Part shown: piece after piece, positions 32,061-62,949 of the stretch | How the letters are laid out: every line of letters starts with the position of its first letter | Numbering within the stretch: position 1 is the first letter of the stretch | Source: an uncultured Desulfobacter sp. | GTDB taxonomy: Bacteria > Desulfobacterota > Desulfobacteria > Desulfobacterales > Desulfobacteraceae | Length of the DNA: 64,000 nt | Reading direction: 5' to 3' | Assembly (NCBI RefSeq): GCF_963665355.1 | Contig: NZ_OY762229.1 | Span: forward strand, 1,178,001 to 1,242,000 | The notes under the pieces: generated by a model | Seen by the model: only the letters and a program-made list of their open reading frames with translations | Databases searched by the model: none | Told to the model about the DNA's origin: nothing | Program-made: the position numbers and the translations under genes

Positions 32061-33352
32061 AAATAACATAGACTCAATTACGTTTCAGCGGTTGTGCCCT
32101 GTAATTCCATTTTCCCAAATATTCATCAAAAATAATTCTCATATTCTCTTTGAAACCTTCTGAATATTTTCTTCCTATTTCATATGTCTTTTGCACAATA
32201 TGAGCTTTTACTTCCAATCCAGTTTGCGTTCTGGTCGTTTCAATCAACTCTTTCACAAAACTATAACCCATTAAAATAACACCTTTTAAAGCTCTTGTGA
32301 TATGTGGAAACACTTTGTGCTCCACGGGATTCCATTTAGATGTATAGGGAGGGTAATGAGCAACACGGATTTCTACTCCTATCCTATCCGAAAGTTTTTG
32401 AAGATCTTCTTTAAAAATATAGTGACGAAATGAGTTACTGCCGCCTCCATCAGCCAGCATAAGAATTGATGTGCAATTTGGGTATTGAAACTGACCATAA
32501 GATTCCCAACATAACTGCAATGAATCACAGGCAAACTCGCTTGTGTCTTTGCTGATGCCAATATTGACATAGGCCTTGTTGCATTTTATATCATAAACGA
32601 TGTGAGGAATTATTACCCATCAGCAAGATATGAAAAATCATGGTCATACACGTCTATCACCTGAGTACTATAAATATGACCATCCCGATATAAATTGCCT
32701 AAAAATTCTTTTTTTTTGTATCCACACTGATGATCGGATTGCCATCCATCAGATATTGTTCTCTTAATCTTGCGATATTTTCAAACTGCTCATTTCGGTC
32801 TTCAGAAGAGCCAATAGCAATCGTCTTGGCCGCTTTACGTTTGACAAAATTATGTTTTTTTAACAGCTTTTTAACGACGGTAACACTGTTGGAGATTCCG
32901 TCCTCTTTCATTTTTGCTGCAATTTTCTTATGGCTTAAATTCGTCCAACGAATTTTGCTATTCATGGGGTCACCAGCAATATGGTTATCTATCACTCTGA
33001 GAAATATTTCATCTATATTATCAGTGGTTTCTATAACCGATTTTTCCCCGGCCCCTATCTTTCGAATCATGTCATTTGGAACTGTTTCAGGATTTTCTAA
33101 CTCGTGTATACCTCTATATAAAGTCATCTTGCTGCAACCAAGGAGCTCCATGATATATGCTTTACCTCCTCGAGGTAATTTAAGAGCTTCAACTGCTGTA
33201 TATGCCGTTTTTCTTTCTCTGATAACCTGGAATAGGTCTCTTTTATGAACCTCTCTATTTCAGGAGGATACGGTGTTAATGGTTTAGGGCCAAATTTTTT
33301 ATTTTGATGCTTCACAGTGCCTCGTTTTTTGTATATTGAACGTCACTGTTAC
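32055..33352 (-). mobile_element. ISAzo13-family insertion sequence, decayed
   Basis: An element of about 1.3 kb carrying one frameshifted transposase. Possible imperfect ends are TAACATAGAC at the left (about 32063) and GTAACAGTGAC read inwards from the right (about 33352); both are followed by CAAT, but the match is short and exact boundaries are uncertain. Its left end cuts the EAL gene remnant. No target duplication was identified. Confidence 0.7.
32074..33315 (-). pseudogene. ISAzo13-type transposase with three frameshifts
   Basis: Joining frames gives a near full-length transposase of about 410 residues: an N-terminal helix-turn-helix part (M-E-L-L-G-C-S-K-M-T-L-Y-R-G-I), I-S-V-D-T-K-K-K-E with the first catalytic Asp, Y-D-H-D-F, the second catalytic motif L-A-D-G-G-G-S-N, and H-Y-P-P-Y-T-S-K-W-N-P-V-E-H with the catalytic Glu. 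These are signatures of the ISAzo13 family DDE domain. The frame shifts by -1 at about 33205-33215 (A5 run), at 32709-32717 (A9 run on the coding strand) and at about 32618-32625 (GGG). As it stands it is broken in four pieces unless frameshifting occurs. Confidence 0.85.
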
Positions 33353-55464: not shown

Positions 55465-56928
55465 TTACCTGAACCGGTCCGCTTCGATCTCGAACCGTTT
55501 CATGATTTGCTGAAGTGCCTGTCTTTCCAGTTTGCATTGTCGGGCAGCCTGGGTCACGTTGCCCTTTGTATCCAACAAAATTTTACCGACATAATGGTGA
55601 TTAAACTCCCTTAGTATCTGCTCTTTGGCCTCTTTATACGGTAAACTGGACAGGGCTGATATTTTGTCTTCCAATTCATCTTTCTGGGGACTTTGCGAGT
55701 CCGGCAGAAATTTTTGGTTTTCCTGTGCTTTGGAAATCAAAGGTATGTTAAAAGATGATGACTCAATATCTTTCGGGGTTATGGTATCGCTGTCACAATT
55801 GAGAATACCCTGAATCAGGACATTTTCCAGCTCCCGAACATTTCCGGGCCACGGCCGCTCCATCAGACACTCAATCGCCTCCGGGGACAAAGATAACCTG
55901 GTTTGATTAAGTTTTTTGCAGTGTTTGTCCATCAAATGCTCGGCTATAGCCGGGATGTCCGTGCGTCTGTCCCGTAAAGGAGGAAGTTCAATGGTAAAAA
56001 CGTTGAGCCGGTAAAAAAAATCCTCCCGAAATTCGCCGGCAGCAATTTTTTGGGCCAGATCGCGGTTGGTAGAAGCCACAATCCGGACATCCACATGAAC
56101 GGGACGTGTATCTCCCAAGGGCTTTATCTCTTTTTCCTGGAGCACCCGCAGCAGCTTTGTCTGGATGGTTGGGCCGATATCACCGATTTCATCAAGGAAA
56201 ATGGTACCTTTATCTGCCTCCTGAAAAAGCCCTTTTTTATTTTGAATTGCATGGGTAAAGGCCCCTTTTTTATATCCGAAAAGTTCGCTCTCTAAAATAT
56301 GTTCCGGCACGGTAGGGCAATTCACCGGAACAAAATTGTTTTTGTGTCTAGGGCTGAGCAAATGAAGGGATTGGGCGGTAAGATCTTTACCCGTACCGGA
56401 TTCTCCGGTGATCAGCACGGTGACATCACTTTGGGCCACTTTGGAAATACTTTCATAAACCCGTTGCATGGGCGGGCTGGTACCGATGAGTTTTCCAAAA
56501 GTGGCGGCATTTTCCCGGTTAAGGATCTTGTTTTCCTGGATGAGACGGGTTCGCTCCAGGGCTTTTTTGACACGAAATAAAATTTCGTCCTGCTCAAAAG
56601 GCTTGGCGATAAAATCATAGGCCCCTTTTTTAATCGCCTGAATAGCCGTTTCAATGCTGCCAAATGCCGTGATCATCATCACGGTAAGATCAGGATATCG
56701 GCGGGAAACTTGATTAAGTACCTCAAATCCGTCCATTCCAGGCATCCGGATATCACAAAGCATCAGATCCGTCCTATCTTTTTCAAGCACATCCAGTGCC
56801 TCATTTCCTGAGAATGCCATGCTGACCCGGCAGTCCAACTCCATCTCAAAAATTTTTTTTAAAAGACGGGTCATATCCTGTTCATCGTCCACTACAAGAA
56901 TATGGGGTTTCATTTTGTATTCCATCAT
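55465..56928 (-). CDS. Sigma-54 response regulator with GAFTHA loop
   Basis: 487 residues: receiver (acidic pair D14/D15, phospho-acceptor D59 in L-C-D-I-R-M-P-G-M-D-G), AAA+ domain (G-E-S-G-T-G-K-D Walker A, G-T-I-F-L-D-E-I-G Walker B) and a C-terminal Fis-type helix-turn-helix (V-T-Q-A-A-R-Q-C-K-L-E-R-Q-A-L-Q-Q). The loop that contacts sigma-54, normally G-A-F-T-G-A, reads G-A-F-T-H-A at 222-227, so its use of sigma-54 may be altered. Its start overlaps the kinase stop (ATGA), so it is surely the partner of that kinase. It is the last gene of the transporter operon. Confidence 0.93.
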   Translation of the reverse strand: MMEYKMKPHILVVDDEQDMTRLLKKIFEMELDCRVSMAFSGNEALDVLEKDRTDLMLCDIRMPGMDGFEVLNQVSRRYPDLTVMMITAFGSIETAIQAIKKGAYDFIAKPFEQDEILFRVKKALERTRLIQENKILNRENAATFGKLIGTSPPMQRVYESISKVAQSDVTVLITGESGTGKDLTAQSLHLLSPRHKNNFVPVNCPTVPEHILESELFGYKKGAFTHAIQNKKGLFQEADKGTIFLDEIGDIGPTIQTKLLRVLQEKEIKPLGDTRPVHVDVRIVASTNRDLAQKIAAGEFREDFFYRLNVFTIELPPLRDRRTDIPAIAEHLMDKHCKKLNQTRLSLSPEAIECLMERPWPGNVRELENVLIQGILNCDSDTITPKDIESSSFNIPLISKAQENQKFLPDSQSPQKDELEDKISALSSLPYKEAKEQILREFNHHYVGKILLDTKGNVTQAARQCKLERQALQQIMKRFEIEADRFR

Positions 56929-58451
56929 GTCGCCAGGGGAAGCGTAAGGGTAAAATGGGCCCCCTGATTTTCCTCACTTTTCACATCAATATGGCCGTTA
57001 TATTTTTTCACAATTCCATAACTGACCGACAGGCCAAGGCCCGTACCCTCTCCCACCGGTTTTGTCGTAAAAAAAGGGTCGAATATCCGGGCAAGATGTT
57101 CCCGGCTGATGCCCCGACCGTCATCTTTGACTTCCACCACCACCTTACCTTTGGAATTGATCTGTCCGAAAATCATGATATTTCCCTTTTTATCAACAGC
57201 ATGGCAGGCATTGATCACAAGATTGATGATCACCTGGCGAAATTCAAGCTCATTGCCCATCACAAAAAGAGGTGAGTCATCGGACAGGGTCAGGGTCATG
57301 TTGACGTTTCTGAAATCAGAGTGGTTGCAAAGAAAGTTCACTACGTTTTCAAGCACCTTACCCATGTCAATTCTGGATAATTCTGTCTGACCCCGTGCCG
57401 ATAAAGAGCTGCTTGCTTTTCTTGAAAAGGCCAGCATATCGGACACAACGGATTGACAGTTTTTCACCTGTTTTTCGATCACCTTTAAATCATCCAGAAT
57501 GTGATCATTTTTTCGAATAACTTTATCTTTAAGCATGAACTGGGTGTACCCTAAAATGACACCTAACGGATTGTTGATCTCATGGGCTACACCGGCAGAC
57601 AGTTCGCCTAAAGCCGCCAGTTTGTCTGCCTGAATAATCTGCTGCTCCATCTCTTTTTTTTCGTTGATATTTTTGATTATAAAGTGAAAGTGTTTCTGGC
57701 ATCCAAACGGGCCATAATCTATTCCACCGGTTATAATCACATACAGGTTGGTATTGTCAGACCGCATAAAATAGGTTTCTTCATTCAGGATATATTCGTG
57801 GGTCTGGATGAGGTCTGCAATGCGTTGCCACTCCTCATTGGATGCAAAAAGCTGATCCATTGAATATTCGTTGGATATCATCTCATCCTTTTTGTATCCG
57901 GTCAATTTTTCACCGGCCGGATTGATATCCAGAATTTTCCACTGACTGTCCGTCAACAGTATGGTGTCCAGAGACTGCTTAAAAATCCGGCTGAATTTGT
58001 GTTCGGATGCGGTGAGCATCTCGGTACGTTCCACCACTTTATTCTCCAGGGTCTGGTTGAGGTTGATCAGTTTGACATGAATCTCTTTGAGGGCTTCTTC
58101 TTTGGAGAGCATTTTCATGTTGATCTTCCAGTTCTGGTTAAAAAAAAGGGTGATGGAACCAACGATCATGAATGAAACCGTATTGATGGTACCGCTGTAA
58201 GCACTGATTGCCTGCCAGACTTCCGTCTGTCCGGTAAGAATCGAGAACTGCCTGAAAATATGCCCGAAAGCTCTGGACAGGGCAAAGATTGTGAGCCCTG
58301 AACACAACCAGGTGAGATAAAGGAAAATAACGTTATCCGGTGCTTTTGTATGCAGTTTTTTAGCGCTGTAAAGGGACATGGCCGCAAATAGAACCAGGCC
58401 CATGGATCCAAGCAAGTCCACGATCAGAATGGGAAAGTAAGGCAGGGTCAT
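56925..58451 (-). CDS. PAS-containing membrane histidine kinase
   Basis: 508 residues. About three N-terminal transmembrane helices (about 5-28, 42-62, 85-113) have only short loops. A coiled coil follows, then a PAS domain (about 150-260), HisKA with H-box A-H-E-I-N-N-P-L-G and HATPase (N-A-C-H-A-V, D-D-G-R-G-I, G-T-G-L-G-L-S). It has no large periplasmic sensor, so the membrane helices themselves, containing R-A-F-G-H and other polar residues, or the PAS domain sense the signal. It overlaps the genes on both sides by 4 bp. With the regulator it probably reports on the transporter encoded upstream. Confidence 0.92.
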   Translation of the reverse strand: MTLPYFPILIVDLLGSMGLVLFAAMSLYSAKKLHTKAPDNVIFLYLTWLCSGLTIFALSRAFGHIFRQFSILTGQTEVWQAISAYSGTINTVSFMIVGSITLFFNQNWKINMKMLSKEEALKEIHVKLINLNQTLENKVVERTEMLTASEHKFSRIFKQSLDTILLTDSQWKILDINPAGEKLTGYKKDEMISNEYSMDQLFASNEEWQRIADLIQTHEYILNEETYFMRSDNTNLYVIITGGIDYGPFGCQKHFHFIIKNINEKKEMEQQIIQADKLAALGELSAGVAHEINNPLGVILGYTQFMLKDKVIRKNDHILDDLKVIEKQVKNCQSVVSDMLAFSRKASSSLSARGQTELSRIDMGKVLENVVNFLCNHSDFRNVNMTLTLSDDSPLFVMGNELEFRQVIINLVINACHAVDKKGNIMIFGQINSKGKVVVEVKDDGRGISREHLARIFDPFFTTKPVGEGTGLGLSVSYGIVKKYNGHIDVKSEENQGAHFTLTLPLAT

Positions 58452-59023
58452 GATATCCCTTCCGTATCGTGGGGTCTCTTTTTTTCTTCGGCAGAAGTGG
58501 TGTCTGTTTTATAAGCTGTTCCTGTTTTCAAAAGCAATGCGGTTTCAGAAGGGTTCTGCCCTGATATATCATCGGATTTATGTGCAATCAGAAGAAGGGA
58601 AAGTCCCCGCCATAAAAAAAACATTCCCGGTAAACATAATAAATGATCCAGCCGCATGAAATAATACAGAAGAGCCGGTCGATGTGAGACGGAAAGGGTT
58701 TTAATATCGATTTGCCCCACAGAGAAAATTTGTGTTCGGATCAATCCTGATTGATTGTCCAGGAAATGGACAATAATTGCATCCAGATTCCACAAGACAA
58801 AGAAGAGAGCGGAATATTGGAATGCCCGCCATTCTTTTTTTTTATTTAACCCCCTTCTGTGGATGGTAATATAAAGGATGACCATGGAGATCAGAAAAAA
58901 AAAGTGGCCGACCTGGTGAACAAGAATTCCTTCGGTTTGACCGTGCATCTGGGTGGCAAGTACCGGACAGGGCAAACCCAATACCAATAGTACAAAAAAA
59001 GCTATAAGTCTTAAGTTTCTCAT
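58448..59023 (-). CDS. Membrane protein with histidines in its helices
   Basis: 191 residues with a signal-like first helix (about 5-23) and three more hydrophobic helices (about 37-55, 68-88, 118-147). H36 and H40 (G-I-L-V-H-Q-V-G-H), H86 (I-I-V-H-F-L-D) and H127 (R-L-D-H-L-L) lie in or at the ends of helices, as in membrane heme or metal sites. The last 45 residues are hydrophilic. I do not recognise a family. It lies 6 bp after the EMC3-like gene and overlaps the kinase gene, so it may be a membrane sensor subunit for it. Confidence 0.72.
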   Translation of the reverse strand: MRNLRLIAFFVLLVLGLPCPVLATQMHGQTEGILVHQVGHFFFLISMVILYITIHRRGLNKKKEWRAFQYSALFFVLWNLDAIIVHFLDNQSGLIRTQIFSVGQIDIKTLSVSHRPALLYYFMRLDHLLCLPGMFFLWRGLSLLLIAHKSDDISGQNPSETALLLKTGTAYKTDTTSAEEKKRPHDTEGIS

Positions 59024-59029
59024 GTCGTT

Positions 59030-59626
59030 TCATTGGGGTTCAAAATCATTGGCGGTATCTTTTTTTCTTTTTTTTATCAGAAAACCAACAAGGCCGAAAA
59101 GGATAAAACTTGCCGGTAGACAGAGGAGAAACCAGAGCAGGGTGCCGACTTGAAAAGCATCCGGGCTGCTGCCCAGGGTGAAAATCCACTGACTGCCAAA
59201 TCTGGTTTCAAGGCTTTCCCGGGTGTAGGTTCTTGATAGATAGGAGATAACAAGCAGGACCGGAAGAACCGTGGTGATCATGTTTTTCATCAGGCCTTCA
59301 AAAAAATAGTCGTAATAAACCTGGTTCAGCTTGGCCTGGTCAATATTTTTGGCCATGGCTTTACCTTTTTCCCTGTCTTCAGCCTCCATGGCCACCTGCC
59401 GCACTGACTGCCAGTGGAGAAATTCTTCTTTCAGATTTTTGAGTCGCCGGGTGCGATAGATTTTGGATAAAATTCTTGTGATACCGGCGGTGGCAAAGGC
59501 AAGGATGATTACCACCCAGGCCGGACCCAGGACCTCAACAGGAGCAAGAAGCTTATCCAGAGCAGCACAGACATTTTCAAGTCCGTACTGGATTTGCATC
59601 CAGACAATGTCTAAAAAGTCATCCAT
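59030..59626 (-). CDS. EMC3/DUF106-like membrane protein
   Basis: 198 residues: helix 1 (about 36-54, V-V-I-I-L-A-F-A-T-A-G-I), a charged cytoplasmic coiled-coil hairpin (about 57-105, R-L-K-N-L-K-E-E-F-L ... A-K-N-I-D-Q-A-K-L-N-Q-V), then helices 2 (about 114-132) and 3 (about 160-182) and a basic tail. This helix-hairpin-helix-helix order is that of the DUF106/EMC3/TMCO1 proteins, which belong with YidC/Oxa1 insertases. It is not the cell's YidC (too short, lacks its extra helices). It may help assemble the adjacent transporter; this is inferred from position. Confidence 0.6.
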   Translation of the reverse strand: MDDFLDIVWMQIQYGLENVCAALDKLLAPVEVLGPAWVVIILAFATAGITRILSKIYRTRRLKNLKEEFLHWQSVRQVAMEAEDREKGKAMAKNIDQAKLNQVYYDYFFEGLMKNMITTVLPVLLVISYLSRTYTRESLETRFGSQWIFTLGSSPDAFQVGTLLWFLLCLPASFILFGLVGFLIKKRKKDTANDFEPQ

Positions 59627-59664
59627 ACGGGCCTTTTTGATTAAGATTCGTGTTAACTTATGGG

Positions 59665-59700
59665 GTCCAGGGCCTGATTGTCAGATTATAGGCCCTGGAC
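59665..59700. other. Intercistronic hairpin between the TauE-like and EMC3-like genes
   Basis: A perfect 11-bp, GC-rich stem (59665-59675 with 59690-59700, GTCCAGGGCCT arm) and a 14-nt loop. No T run follows on the minus strand, so it is a likely RNA-processing or stability element that separates transporter from downstream expression, rather than a complete terminator. Confidence 0.6.
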
Positions 59701-59736
59701 AGAGGGGTTTCAAGGCGATTTGCCTTTGATTAGAAT

Positions 59737-61437
59737 TTAGATCCAGATTTCGATCTTAAAGAATCTGAAGAAAAGGAAAAACAGGGTGCAGGCCAGTACC
59801 ACCTTCAGTGTCATCTCCGAGAACATTTTCTGGGCCCGGGATCCGAGCATACCTCCGGCAAATCCGCCGACAATTATGGAAATGGCCAGGGTCATATCCG
59901 GCAGATAACCGGTAATCAGATACCCGATAAAAGAGCCGATACTGGAAAAACAGGTGCCGATCAGGGAGATGGGCACGGCCACATACATGGGCAACGCGCC
60001 GATGGATGTCATGGCCGGTACCAGCAGGAAGCCGCCACCCACGCCGAAGGACCGGGAAACCACGCCGATGAGTACGCCGATAATCCCGAAGAGCAGGGGA
60101 TTGATCCTGAACTCTTCACCCCAGAATTTGAATCGGTAGTCGGTCAACCCGGTTTTAATAGGTTCGATGGAACCCATTTCAGCGGCACGGCCTTCGGCCT
60201 TGGCCTTGGCGATTTCGGCATTAAACTTCTGGGTCATGGCCTTGATATTTTTACGTTTTCTCATGGCCTTCGGGCTCATCTCCATAAGGGTCTTGATCCC
60301 CATGAGAACAACCAGAACGGCCAGCCACTCCTGGTAGGCCTTCATGGGCAGAACGGCTGAAACGTATTTGCCCAGCCAGATAGATCCGATGAATATACCT
60401 ACGCCGAAGGAGATGCCCACGGGCCAGGCCACCCGTTTTTCCACCACGGCATACCGCCAGAAAGAGCCCAGGGGGGAGAACAGGGTCAGGGCCATGTTGG
60501 AAGGTTTAAGCACGTTGGCCGCGTTGATGCCCACAGGCCCCATGGTGTTGACCACCAGCGCCTGGAAAGCGGCCATGAGCAGGCCGCCGGCCGCACCGAT
60601 CATGGAGAAATAGGTACCCACCAGGATGGCGCCGATCAGTATCCAGATGGGGTTCATGTACCGGTAGCCCTTGGATAGCCAGAATCCGTTTTTCTCAATG
60701 GAGTAGGAGGTTGTTTTTTCGCCGTTGACATAGACATCAAACTTGGTGTCTGGAGGGGTGTGCCTGAAGGATTTAAAGCTGACGGTAAACTGTCCTGTGT
60801 TCTTATCCAGGTTGATCTTTGTCCCCTTGTCCCAGTAGTTTCCGCTGGATTCATCCGTAACCACGGTTTTGGAAAAGATCACCACCTTGCCCCTGCGGTT
60901 GCCCTCTTTGACAATGGTGTTGATGCCGTAATCGTCTTCATTGGCCCAGCGCAGAAAGTTCCACTGCTTGGCAGAGGTTATGGGACCCATCATGGTCCGG
61001 GCATCCGGATCCACATCTTCATAATTTTTTTTCAGGTAGAACATGGTGGTGGAGTAGATGCCGTTTCCCTTGCCCAGGATCACCGAAGGTCCGCCGAATT
61101 TCTTTTTGTCCACCTTGCCGAATTTTTCCGGTACGTTGGTCACCAGGTAATACATGGGAGGAATGGCCGTATCCATATCAAAATCCCCCTTGGCGGTGAT
61201 GCTTTTGAACTTTTTGGTCTCATGGACGCCGGTTGTATCCTTGGGGGCGAACATATCTGTCTGGGACAGGGTGAGGTAAAGGTCGGCACCGGGCTCGATC
61301 TGCCCCTTTATCTCCACCACATCTCCGGCTTTATATGATGCAGCCGATACACTTGCACTGGTTGCGGCCAGACACATTTGGGTTGATATAAACAACCCCA
61401 GCACCATGACAGCCAGATATGAACAGGTTTTTCTCAT
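59737..61437 (-). CDS. TauE/SafE-family transporter with large exported domain
   Basis: 566 residues. A signal peptide (about 1-24, ending C-L-A-A) is followed by an extracytoplasmic domain of about 240 residues (N-terminal beta-like part, then D-V-Y-V-N-G-E-K-T-T), then the membrane part of about eight helices in two repeats: I-G-A-A-G-G-L-L-M-A-A-F and S-F-G-V-G-G-G-F-L-L-V-P, the TauE/SafE (sulfite exporter) signature. A charged cytoplasmic loop (about 395-450) divides the halves. TauE-type proteins export sulfite or other organosulfur or small anions; the extra domain is uncommon for the family. AAGGAAGA precedes the ATG. Confidence 0.85.
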   Translation of the reverse strand: MRKTCSYLAVMVLGLFISTQMCLAATSASVSAASYKAGDVVEIKGQIEPGADLYLTLSQTDMFAPKDTTGVHETKKFKSITAKGDFDMDTAIPPMYYLVTNVPEKFGKVDKKKFGGPSVILGKGNGIYSTTMFYLKKNYEDVDPDARTMMGPITSAKQWNFLRWANEDDYGINTIVKEGNRRGKVVIFSKTVVTDESSGNYWDKGTKINLDKNTGQFTVSFKSFRHTPPDTKFDVYVNGEKTTSYSIEKNGFWLSKGYRYMNPIWILIGAILVGTYFSMIGAAGGLLMAAFQALVVNTMGPVGINAANVLKPSNMALTLFSPLGSFWRYAVVEKRVAWPVGISFGVGIFIGSIWLGKYVSAVLPMKAYQEWLAVLVVLMGIKTLMEMSPKAMRKRKNIKAMTQKFNAEIAKAKAEGRAAEMGSIEPIKTGLTDYRFKFWGEEFRINPLLFGIIGVLIGVVSRSFGVGGGFLLVPAMTSIGALPMYVAVPISLIGTCFSSIGSFIGYLITGYLPDMTLAISIIVGGFAGGMLGSRAQKMFSEMTLKVVLACTLFFLFFRFFKIEIWI

Positions 61438-61560
61438 TCTTCCTTCTCTCCTTGAAAAATCTTAGGTAATTTAGTCGCCCAAGGGGCGGTAATTTGAAGC
61501 TAAAGCCTGGTTGCCAGGCATGACGCCCAGGCTGTGTGCAAAACTCGACTCATCCGTATA

Positions 61561-61582
61561 GGTGCAAAAAAAATATTGCACC
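61561..61582. other. Hairpin between DUF169 and TauE-like genes
   Basis: GGTGCAA (61561-61567) pairs with TTGCACC (61576-61582). It lies 18 bp after the DUF169 stop and may end or attenuate that transcript. No long T run follows. Confidence 0.45.
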
Positions 61583-61600
61583 CCCGGCGGTTGTGATCTT

Positions 61601-62479
61601 TTATTTATTTTTCGGCGGCCTGAAATTTAAGAGCGGACAGAGTTTACAGATATCAAAGCCCGGATAGGTTTCACCTGTTCTGGGGAAGGATACGCCGCCG
61701 TCACGAACAATACGTTCCAGCATCCAGTGAACGGTGGGTTCCATCTGTTCATAGGGCATGATCCAGTTAACTTCCCCCTGTTCGGTCTTTCCGGCTGTAT
61801 AGCTGCTGCTGCACATCTGGGTCACGTTGAATTTGTCCATGACATAACATTGAACACAGCCATGGCAGATGGAAGAGTTCATGGTCATAATCATTTCAAA
61901 AGGATGGCTGTCAAAGGCCGCATTCCAGTCGTTGGCCATATGATATGACTGGAGGGGATCGCACATGCCGTGGATCAGGTCGGGTTTAAAGGGGGCCTTG
62001 TGAAGGGGGGCGGTTGCAAAGGCCAGGGGGGCCTGGGGAAGTCGTTTTTTTGTTTTGACAAATCGCTCGGCCTGGGCACTATCTTTGGTATACTTCAGGT
62101 GGCTTTTGATCTCCTCTTCATCCATCTCTTTCCACTTCATAACGTATTTTGCGTTACCGCATCCGACCTTCTTTTCCGTACCCAGCAGGATATCGCCCCT
62201 TTGCCGGCTTGCAGCCACATAAGCACAAAATGTAACGGCCGGACCGGATTCTTTATATTCGACATTGTTTTTAAAATCTTCCAGTTCATCTGCGTTAAAA
62301 AAATACTTCACCGCCACCGGATAATATTTCATCTTGAGAAAATTTCTCAAGGCAAATACGATTCCGGAATCACTGATTTTGCCGCCATTTTTGTCCGCAC
62401 TGGCCAGAATGGATTTTGCCAGAGCCACGTCGTCGAGACATTGATCGAAGTCCAATGAAAAAGAATCATTTGCTGTCAT
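61601..62479 (-). CDS. DUF169 cysteine-rich protein
   Basis: 292 residues, no signal peptide or membrane helix. It matches the DUF169 pattern: K-Y-Y-P-V-A-V-K-Y-F near the N-terminus, T-F-C-A-Y-V, V-G-C-G-N-A, a central C205-x-x-C208-x-x-C211 with C223, and a C278-x-x-C281 pair at the end. The clustered cysteines suggest metal or Fe-S binding, but the family has no established reaction. It is common in anaerobes next to redox and C1 genes. It lies 164 bp upstream of the TauE-like gene on the same strand, perhaps cotranscribed. Confidence 0.87.
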   Translation of the reverse strand: MTANDSFSLDFDQCLDDVALAKSILASADKNGGKISDSGIVFALRNFLKMKYYPVAVKYFFNADELEDFKNNVEYKESGPAVTFCAYVAASRQRGDILLGTEKKVGCGNAKYVMKWKEMDEEEIKSHLKYTKDSAQAERFVKTKKRLPQAPLAFATAPLHKAPFKPDLIHGMCDPLQSYHMANDWNAAFDSHPFEMIMTMNSSICHGCVQCYVMDKFNVTQMCSSSYTAGKTEQGEVNWIMPYEQMEPTVHWMLERIVRDGGVSFPRTGETYPGFDICKLCPLLNFRPPKNK

Positions 62480-62949
62480 AGTTTAATACTCCCATGAAGA
62501 CATCTGTCAATGGTCTGGTTTTCCATTGGCACGATGCTTTTGTATATTGTAAAAAGAATTCTAACGAATACCTGGATTTGTTGAATTGCCACAAGTATGC
62601 CAGGGTGATTAAAATAAGGATAAAACTTAATTATCTATTATATAATATATTGAATTTAAAATGATTACTTTTAATAAAAACTGAAAGGAAAGCGCGGTTT
62701 ACCCTGATACGCCAAGCCGTTTCAACTAATTTTCCAGCCCTGAAGTTGCAATAAAATTCAGGCAGTGCAATAAATTTATTGCATTATGCGCTGATCAACG
62801 GATAATACCCTCACCTTGCTGCTGAGGGGTGCGTACTTCTTTTTCAGGGGGATGTGTCGATTCTTACACCATTATGATCAATTGAGCCCGGAAGCTTTGT
62901 ATGGTGTCATTGCAGGTGGAAACCTTTTGCGCAGAAGACTGGTAGAGGG
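62480..62949. other. Intergenic region with a perfect palindrome
   Basis: 470 bp upstream of the DUF169 gene and downstream of the EAL gene. It holds the 18-bp palindrome TGCAATAAATTTATTGCA at 62766-62783 and a weak CCCTCA/TGAGGG stem at about 62809-62828. A 33-codon frame at 62852 is not convincing. No promoter was recognised. Confidence 0.55.

Follow-up and report, generated by a model that had tools for sequence, protein, structure and literature searches.

The window, a 64,000-nt stretch of the genome of an uncultured Desulfobacter sp., contains at positions 55465-62479 a unit of six genes, all on the minus strand. In order, they encode a DUF169 protein, a TauE/SafE-type (TSUP) transporter, an EMC3-like membrane protein, a membrane protein with conserved histidines (HISM), a PAS histidine kinase, and an NtrC-type sigma54 response regulator (Table 1). 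Coordinates and domain searches confirmed these families and the common strand, as given in an earlier note on this DNA. The tight packing of the last four genes described there was also exact: the gap between EMC3 and HISM is 6 bp, and HISM overlaps the kinase gene, and the kinase gene the regulator gene, by 4 bp. The remaining gaps are 163 bp (DUF169-TauE) and 110 bp (TauE-EMC3).

We found that this gene set is real, conserved and larger than first described, and that it is a variant of a published cluster and not a new kind of system. In the window genome, two more genes, encoding a PPDK-like protein (1332 bits) and a phosphatase (574 bits), lie just outside the window, ~8 kb upstream of DUF169 (locus L142; L-numbers label the neighbourhoods compared in relatives). 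A sigma70-like site (TTGAAA-17-TATAAT, 11/12 matches) is found at 59713-59685, directly before EMC3. The genes from EMC3 to the regulator could therefore have a promoter separate from that of TauE; at a lower threshold, the same search gave 14 sites in the stretch vs 12.2 expected.

Table 1. Genes and predicted sites of the unit, in window positions
Feature	Position	Strand	Evidence
Perfect 18-bp palindrome TGCAATAAATTTATTGCA, predicted enhancer site of the regulator	62766..62783	.	pattern taken from the site
Sigma54 (-24/-12) promoter-like site TGGCATACTTGTGGCA, upstream of DUF169	62587..62602	-	pattern search
DUF169 protein, 292 aa, first gene of the unit here	61601..62479	-	PF02596 2e-48
Second palindrome copy, 3 mismatches, between DUF169 and TauE	61563..61580	.	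same pattern search
TSUP (TauE/SafE-type) transporter, 566 aa, N-terminal exported domain of ~240 residues	59737..61437	-	PF01925 1.5e-29
EMC3/TMCO1-like (DUF106-like) membrane protein, 198 aa	59030..59626	-	PF01956 1.4e-6, 28.6 bits
HISM, membrane protein with conserved histidines, proposed sensor partner of the kinase	58448..59023	-	residue conservation
PAS histidine kinase, short N-terminal membrane domain	56925..58451	-	HisKA, HATPase_c, PAS
NtrC-type sigma54 response regulator (receiver + sigma54-AAA)	55465..56928	-	Response_reg, Sigma54_activat

The TauE gene, its EMC3-like neighbour and the accompanying sensor genes

The TSUP domain of TauE (PF01925, 103.8 bits, cut-off 32.6) covers residues 267-557. 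The N-terminal part has a hydrophobic start (residues 8-26), and the exported part had no significant family in Pfam. PF09608 was considered for the exported domain and was unsupported (profile comparison over 17 columns, probability 1.6). Long TauE proteins are sharply distinct: full-length relatives scored at least 638 bits, and the next TSUP matches, without the N-terminal domain, scored 156 bits.

We compared gene neighbourhoods using a set of named loci, the best 80 of the 115 relatives found. TauE was directly upstream of EMC3 (within 600 bp) in 75 of the 79 named loci whose EMC3 was clustered. In the 80th, from a Desulfosarcina metagenome-assembled genome (L091:9001-10059), the EMC3-like protein and HISM are one open frame of 352 aa, either a fusion or an assembly artefact. 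Among the 38 well-flanked loci (at least 6 kb upstream and at least 4.5 kb downstream), TauE was present in 37, the kinase in 36, HISM in 35 and the regulator in 34. Where there was room downstream, EMC3, HISM, kinase and regulator were consecutive in 39 of 54 loci. That is, the conserved co-occurrence that the earlier note had proposed to look for was found. Homologues are not scattered at random in relatives; the set recurs in many genomes, which rules out a chance neighbourhood.

These loci share descent and the counts are therefore not independent. Rearranged gene orders and the presence of two transporter types make a better argument. HISM, kinase and receiver are placed upstream of TauE in L075, L096, L106, L112 and L115, and the TauE-EMC3 pair is kept without HISM nearby in L006-L009. 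Among 98 relatives, 34 had an EMC3-like gene. A phylum-wide sample of 345 genomes had it in 16, all of which are within the 19 genomes of that sample that have a long TauE. The remaining three had a weak EMC3 match beside TauE (L147 and L148) or none (L149). Eighteen of these 19 genomes had dsrA above cut-off, compared to 161 of 345 in the whole phylum sample.

The second transporter type came from Desulfovibrionaceae. The match of the window EMC3-like protein to PF01956 was barely above the cut-off (28.6 vs 27.1 bits), and 17 of 29 relatives matched this family at E 0.01 or better. The best solved relative of the EMC3-like profile was archaeal MJ0480 (7e-6), and hydropathy indicated three hydrophobic segments, the first and second of them separated by a long charged stretch. 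We compared this profile (A2) to that of the family of the gene after TauE in Desulfovibrionaceae loci (A8, 21 sequences). The two matched over 153 columns with E 2.6e-8, probability 95.2 and a score of 59.3, and controls with two unrelated membrane families, 30 column shuffles and a reversed alignment scored 22.2 or less. An earlier comparison of this type, with two sequences only, gave E 0.0033 and probability 9.7; the match became clear with 21. Judged by these profiles, the gene beside TauE in Desulfovibrionaceae loci of the nitrate-cluster type (described below) is a remote EMC3-like homologue.

Within the window genus (13 of 19 genomes taken in), HISM was found in 11 genomes, and the same 11 have EMC3 or an A8-type gene. 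In bridge loci L224, L225 and L227, a short TauE and an A8-type gene are together with HISM, kinase and regulator. Based on the co-occurrence in the genus and on the bridge loci, the HISM-kinase-regulator set accompanies either transporter pair. In Desulfovibrionaceae, a binding protein and a different kinase are used instead of the HISM set, and the TauE and EMC3-like pair is without a HISM match in L213-L215, L217, L219, L220 and L229. Comparative gene order shows TauE and the predicted EMC3-like protein as a conserved two-gene core with which HISM, kinase and regulator travel. We found no description of this pair in the open-licence literature.

HISM matched no family in Pfam or NCBIfam. 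In 48 sequences, residues E31, G32, H36, Q37, H40, W65, W78, H86, Y121 and P132 are invariant, and H27 and H127 are conserved at 90% or more. In the N-terminal region of the kinase, H64 is present in 61/61 aligned relatives. A testable guess is that H36, H40 and H86 of HISM, with H64 of the kinase, could take part in haem or metal sensing. The regulator matched Response_reg (109.8 bits) and Sigma54_activat (228.7 bits), both above cut-off, and matched HTH_8 (Fis-type) weakly (16.0 bits, below the cut-off of 22). It has the receiver, AAA and helix-turn-helix parts of the sigma54 enhancer-binding class, with GAFTHA instead of GAFTGA in the sigma54 loop. The loop in 58 relatives was GAFTNA (27), GAFTHA (20), GAFTGA (6), GAFTDA (2) or GAFTSA (2), and none was found in one. 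Substituted loops are described for 12 of 37 D. vulgaris regulators (PMC4641369). Because substitutions are common there too, GAFTHA lowers the class assignment little.

DUF169, which the earlier note had placed in the unit, was rejected as a core member: only 3 of the 80 named loci carry it. It was found in 10 of the 115 clustered loci, a set in which some genomes are counted twice, and may be a member of the regulon rather than of the core. Of the 80 named loci, 39 encode a small membrane protein of ~127 aa with no Pfam family (M127; e.g. L058:6799-7182). Its gene often immediately precedes TauE and is the first of many TauE operons; it is not part of the window unit. A second TSUP protein of ~250 aa lies between EMC3 and HISM in L076, L085, L089, L093 and L094 (PF01925 3.3e-48 for the one in L076), and a Rex-like repressor gene (PF06971) is directly upstream of TauE in three deep-branching loci, L147, L149 and L152. 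The window genome also has a second TSUP cluster (L143, C2:4490000-4509000) with a kinase, a 313-aa TauE, a PF09608 protein, a PPDK-like gene and a receiver.

Predicted regulatory sites and the reductase of relatives

The pattern of the sigma54-like site TGGCATACTTGTGGCA was written post hoc; with up to one mismatch it was found 5 times vs 6.08 expected, and is not significant alone. The pattern of the palindrome TGCAATAAATTTATTGCA, with up to three mismatches, occurs at two places in the window vs 0.07 expected. Exact TGCAAT-N6-ATTGCA is found at two places in the genome, one of them 62766-62783. The second window copy could also be a hairpin. Upstream of TauE, the core GCAATATTTTTATTGC recurs in L007 and L009.

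We counted such sites in distinct upstream regions of relatives, with a threshold of 13 for sigma54 sites and with shuffles that kept base composition only. The window's own sigma54 site scores 12.5, below this threshold, and so was uncounted. Sigma54-like sites were found before the reductase gene described below (18/29; 0.12 expected from shuffles), M127 (16/28; 0.16), DUF169 (4/6; 0.01), HISM (6/25; 0.23) and TauE (4/48; 0.25), and before none of seven PPDK-like genes (0.05 expected). The palindrome, as GCAAT-N6-ATTGC, was found before the reductase gene (7/29), M127 (5/28), DUF169 (2/6), PPDK-like genes (3/7) and TauE (4/48), and in none of the 25 upstream regions of HISM, with an expectation of 0.02 or less for each class.

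A scan of the window genome for the palindrome with up to one mismatch gave 23 places: the two window sites, three that share an identical 18-mer and were left out of the regulon inspection, and 18 that were inspected. At five of the 18, a sigma54-like site scoring at least 12.5 was present no further than 600 bases away, and in each case it fell within a reading frame or was on the wrong side. With no well-placed sigma54 site at any of the 18, a wider regulon in the window genome was rejected, and the regulator looks local. Separately, the palindrome-like 18-mer at window 32472-32489 is present three times in the genome (C2:1210472, 2794064 and 5011799), perhaps within a repeated element.

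Clustering of neighbouring genes in relatives gave a PhsA-like molybdoenzyme, a DmsB-like ferredoxin, a GltD-like flavoprotein and a HoxU-like ferredoxin, and 34 of the 38 well-flanked loci encode at least one of the first three. The best NCBIfam model for the molybdoenzyme was thiosulfate reductase PhsA (604 bits, below the cut-off of 694; next 270), and the best solved relative was 2vpw (375 bits; next 185). In the examples inspected (such as L013, L014, L017 and L099), the 4Fe-4S cysteines begin at about residue 9, leaving no space for an export signal. N-termini of this kind point to a cytoplasmic location for the linked enzyme of relatives. With a limit of E 1e-150, the reductase was found in 92 of the 345 phylum-sample genomes, of which at least 47 have a listed TSUP match within 15 kb.

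Relation to the Desulfovibrio nitrate cluster

Korte et al. (2014, PMC4001038) describe a nitrate cluster in Desulfovibrio (Dde_0597-0605 / DVU0251-0245) with genes for DUF169, TauE, a conserved hypothetical protein, a PtxB-like protein, a kinase, a receiver, a PPDK-like protein and a phosphatase. We found this gene set, whole or in large part, in Desulfovibrionaceae loci L145, L146, L211, L213-L215, L217, L219, L220 and L229. A phosphonate-type binding protein is beside the pair in each of them (PF12974 for L146, and relatives of it in the others). In the window together with L142, TauE, a gene in the EMC3 slot, DUF169, kinase, regulator, PPDK-like gene and phosphatase gene are likewise in one neighbourhood. 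No PtxB-type binding protein was found between the TauE pair and the kinase in the window. HISM is in that slot, and the window set is therefore a variant of the nitrate cluster and not a plain member.

The earlier note had taken the set not to be a described system; the published cluster, which lists DUF169, TauE, kinase and regulator (PMC4001038), is homologous to it. Because the gene beside TauE in the Desulfovibrionaceae loci is an EMC3-like homologue (E 2.6e-8), the window set appears to be the Desulfobacterales counterpart of the nitrate cluster, a putative leaky thiosulfate importer.

The published genetics comes from that cluster. In the report of Korte et al., isolated insertion mutants of DVU0251 (TauE), DVU0250, DVU0247 and DVU0246 grew no differently when 100 mM nitrate was present. 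The authors' proposal is a leaky thiosulfate transporter, and they read resistance as blocked entry. They remark, from unpublished data, that the mutants are mildly sick on thiosulfate, and they report that rex mutants are likewise nitrate resistant in Desulfovibrio (PMC4001038).

A putative uptake unit and its known counterparts

The reading that we favour, with a probability of roughly 0.55, is that the genes encode an uptake unit under sigma54 control. It would take in a small sulfur oxyanion, most probably thiosulfate or something closely analogous, and TauE would act together with an EMC3-like partner. The import direction is taken from the nitrate resistance of the mutants, which the authors read as blocked entry, and from the cytoplasmic look of the reductase of relatives. 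TauE would move the anion into the cytoplasm, and its exported domain would capture the anion or gate the path. The EMC3-like protein would be a dedicated assembly factor or subunit of the TauE transporter. HISM, together with the membrane part of the kinase, may sense redox state or the anion through its histidines, possibly with haem, and the phosphorylated regulator would bind the palindrome and activate the sigma54 promoter. Where a species has the PhsA-like enzyme, NAD(P)H would serve to reduce the anion in the cytoplasm; the window species has no close enzyme of this kind, and DsrAB or some other enzyme would have to carry out the reduction there. Besides PhsAB, DsrAB has been suggested as the other thiosulfate reductase (PMC4215793).

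A bolder proposal, which we make tentatively and which may somewhat more easily prove wrong than right, is that a single anion transporter has the EMC3-like protein as its obligate and dedicated partner or subunit. A bacterial branch of the EMC3/YidC superfamily would then have turned from general insertase to part of a transport machine. This role would explain the conserved hypothetical gene of the isolated nitrate-resistant D. vulgaris mutant, and HISM and the kinase would form a membrane histidine (haem?) sensor that replaces the periplasmic binding protein.

Several observations weigh against thiosulfate uptake. The main one, for a simple thiosulfate story, is that no close PhsA-like enzyme was found in the window genome (best 128 bits), and the enzyme was rejected as a necessary part there. 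Among the matches listed, 45 of the 92 reductase genomes are without a TSUP place within 15 kb, and in G20 the annotated PhsAB (Dde_1076:Dde_1075) is not within the nitrate cluster (PMC4215793). Only some of the upstream regions contain the palindrome (reductase 7/29, TauE 4/48, HISM 0/25). The A8 family alone had no PF01956 match and no solved relative in PDB, and DVU0250/Dde_0600 would be the EMC3-like gene by position and length in related loci. The genetics is also mixed, as reported by Korte et al. (PMC4001038): the DVU0245 mutant was not resistant, a DVU0248 mutant gained little or nothing according to preliminary data, and pooled DVU0250 mutants had a fitness of -5.82 in nitrate, contrary to what the isolated mutant showed and to the value for Dde_0600 (+2.88). 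Polar effects are possible in the published mutants.

The lack of a close PhsA-like enzyme in the window genome would also fit an import unit that naturally serves a different oxyanion, such as sulfate, tetrathionate or phosphite, with nitrate and thiosulfate as side substrates, as would the phosphonate-type binding protein that adjoins the pair in Desulfovibrionaceae loci (PF12974, L146). We consider this unlikely, though the strongest of the alternatives. In relatives, the linked enzyme has its closest matches among thiosulfate/polysulfide reductases, the reductase and the transporter operon have predicted promoter and palindrome sites in common, and the mutants have a thiosulfate defect (an unpublished remark in PMC4001038).

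It is also possible, and a little more doubtful, that the EMC3-like protein is an insertase for HISM or other membrane proteins rather than a partner of TauE. EMC3/YidC proteins are insertases elsewhere (PMC8887752, PMC8675477), and the single EMC3-HISM frame of L091, from one metagenome-assembled genome, would suit such a role. However, TauE and EMC3 are together without HISM nearby in L006-L009, HISM is on the other side in the five rearranged loci, and the Desulfovibrionaceae pairs listed above have no HISM match.

Thiosulfate reductase produces sulfite in the cytoplasm, and an exporter could suit a neighbouring PhsA-like enzyme that did the same. The TSUP family takes its name from a protein proposed to export sulfite (cited in PMC5840216 and PMC3949148) and TSUP function is not predictable from sequence (PMC5840216), but an exporter that senses flux, carries sulfite or a different sulfur anion and responds to build-up of the anion in the cell by being switched on is improbable: nitrate resistance is expected from loss of an importer and not of an exporter (the reading in PMC4001038), and sulfite is the Dsr substrate here, so that export would waste electron acceptor. 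Of the earlier interpretation, the conserved transporter/EMC3-like/two-component unit tied to dissimilatory sulfur metabolism (dsrA in 18/19) stands. Its exporter, its flux sensing, which was unsupported, and its undescribed system gave way to import by a variant of the nitrate cluster.

The EMC3-like partner is the part that a specialist would not expect, and it provides a bacterial member of this kind that has a single evident client. The comparison joins the nitrate resistance of sulfate reducers, which is published, unexplained and relevant to souring control, to a gene set across Desulfobacterota. It proposes a protein family for the conserved hypothetical gene of the nitrate cluster and predicts an accompanying reductase and regulon.

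Four known systems resemble parts of the unit. The nitrate cluster is alike in DUF169, TauE, the EMC3-slot gene (by profile homology of related loci), kinase, receiver, PPDK-like gene and phosphatase. In contrast to it, the window TauE has an exported domain, HISM takes the place of the PtxB-type protein, the kinase has a short membrane domain, and the regulator is a full NtrC-type protein and not a lone receiver. Archaeal DUF106/YidC-like MJ0480 and eukaryotic EMC3/TMCO1 (Oxa1 superfamily) are alike in profile and in hydropathy, with three hydrophobic segments of which the first is followed by charged residues, but the window-type protein is bacterial and tied to one transporter operon, with a putative insertase role. 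The PhsA/PsrA thiosulfate/polysulfide reductases are the best family and best solved structure for the enzyme of relatives only; unlike them, that enzyme is under the curated PhsA cut-off, has no signal-sized N-terminus in the examples, and is encoded with a GltD-like flavoprotein and a HoxU-like ferredoxin. Finally, the TSUP operon DVU0132-0133, bound by regulators DVU0110/DVUA0057 (PMC4641369), is a case of sigma54-type control of a TSUP permease in a sulfate reducer, a likeness that covers the permease and the regulators.

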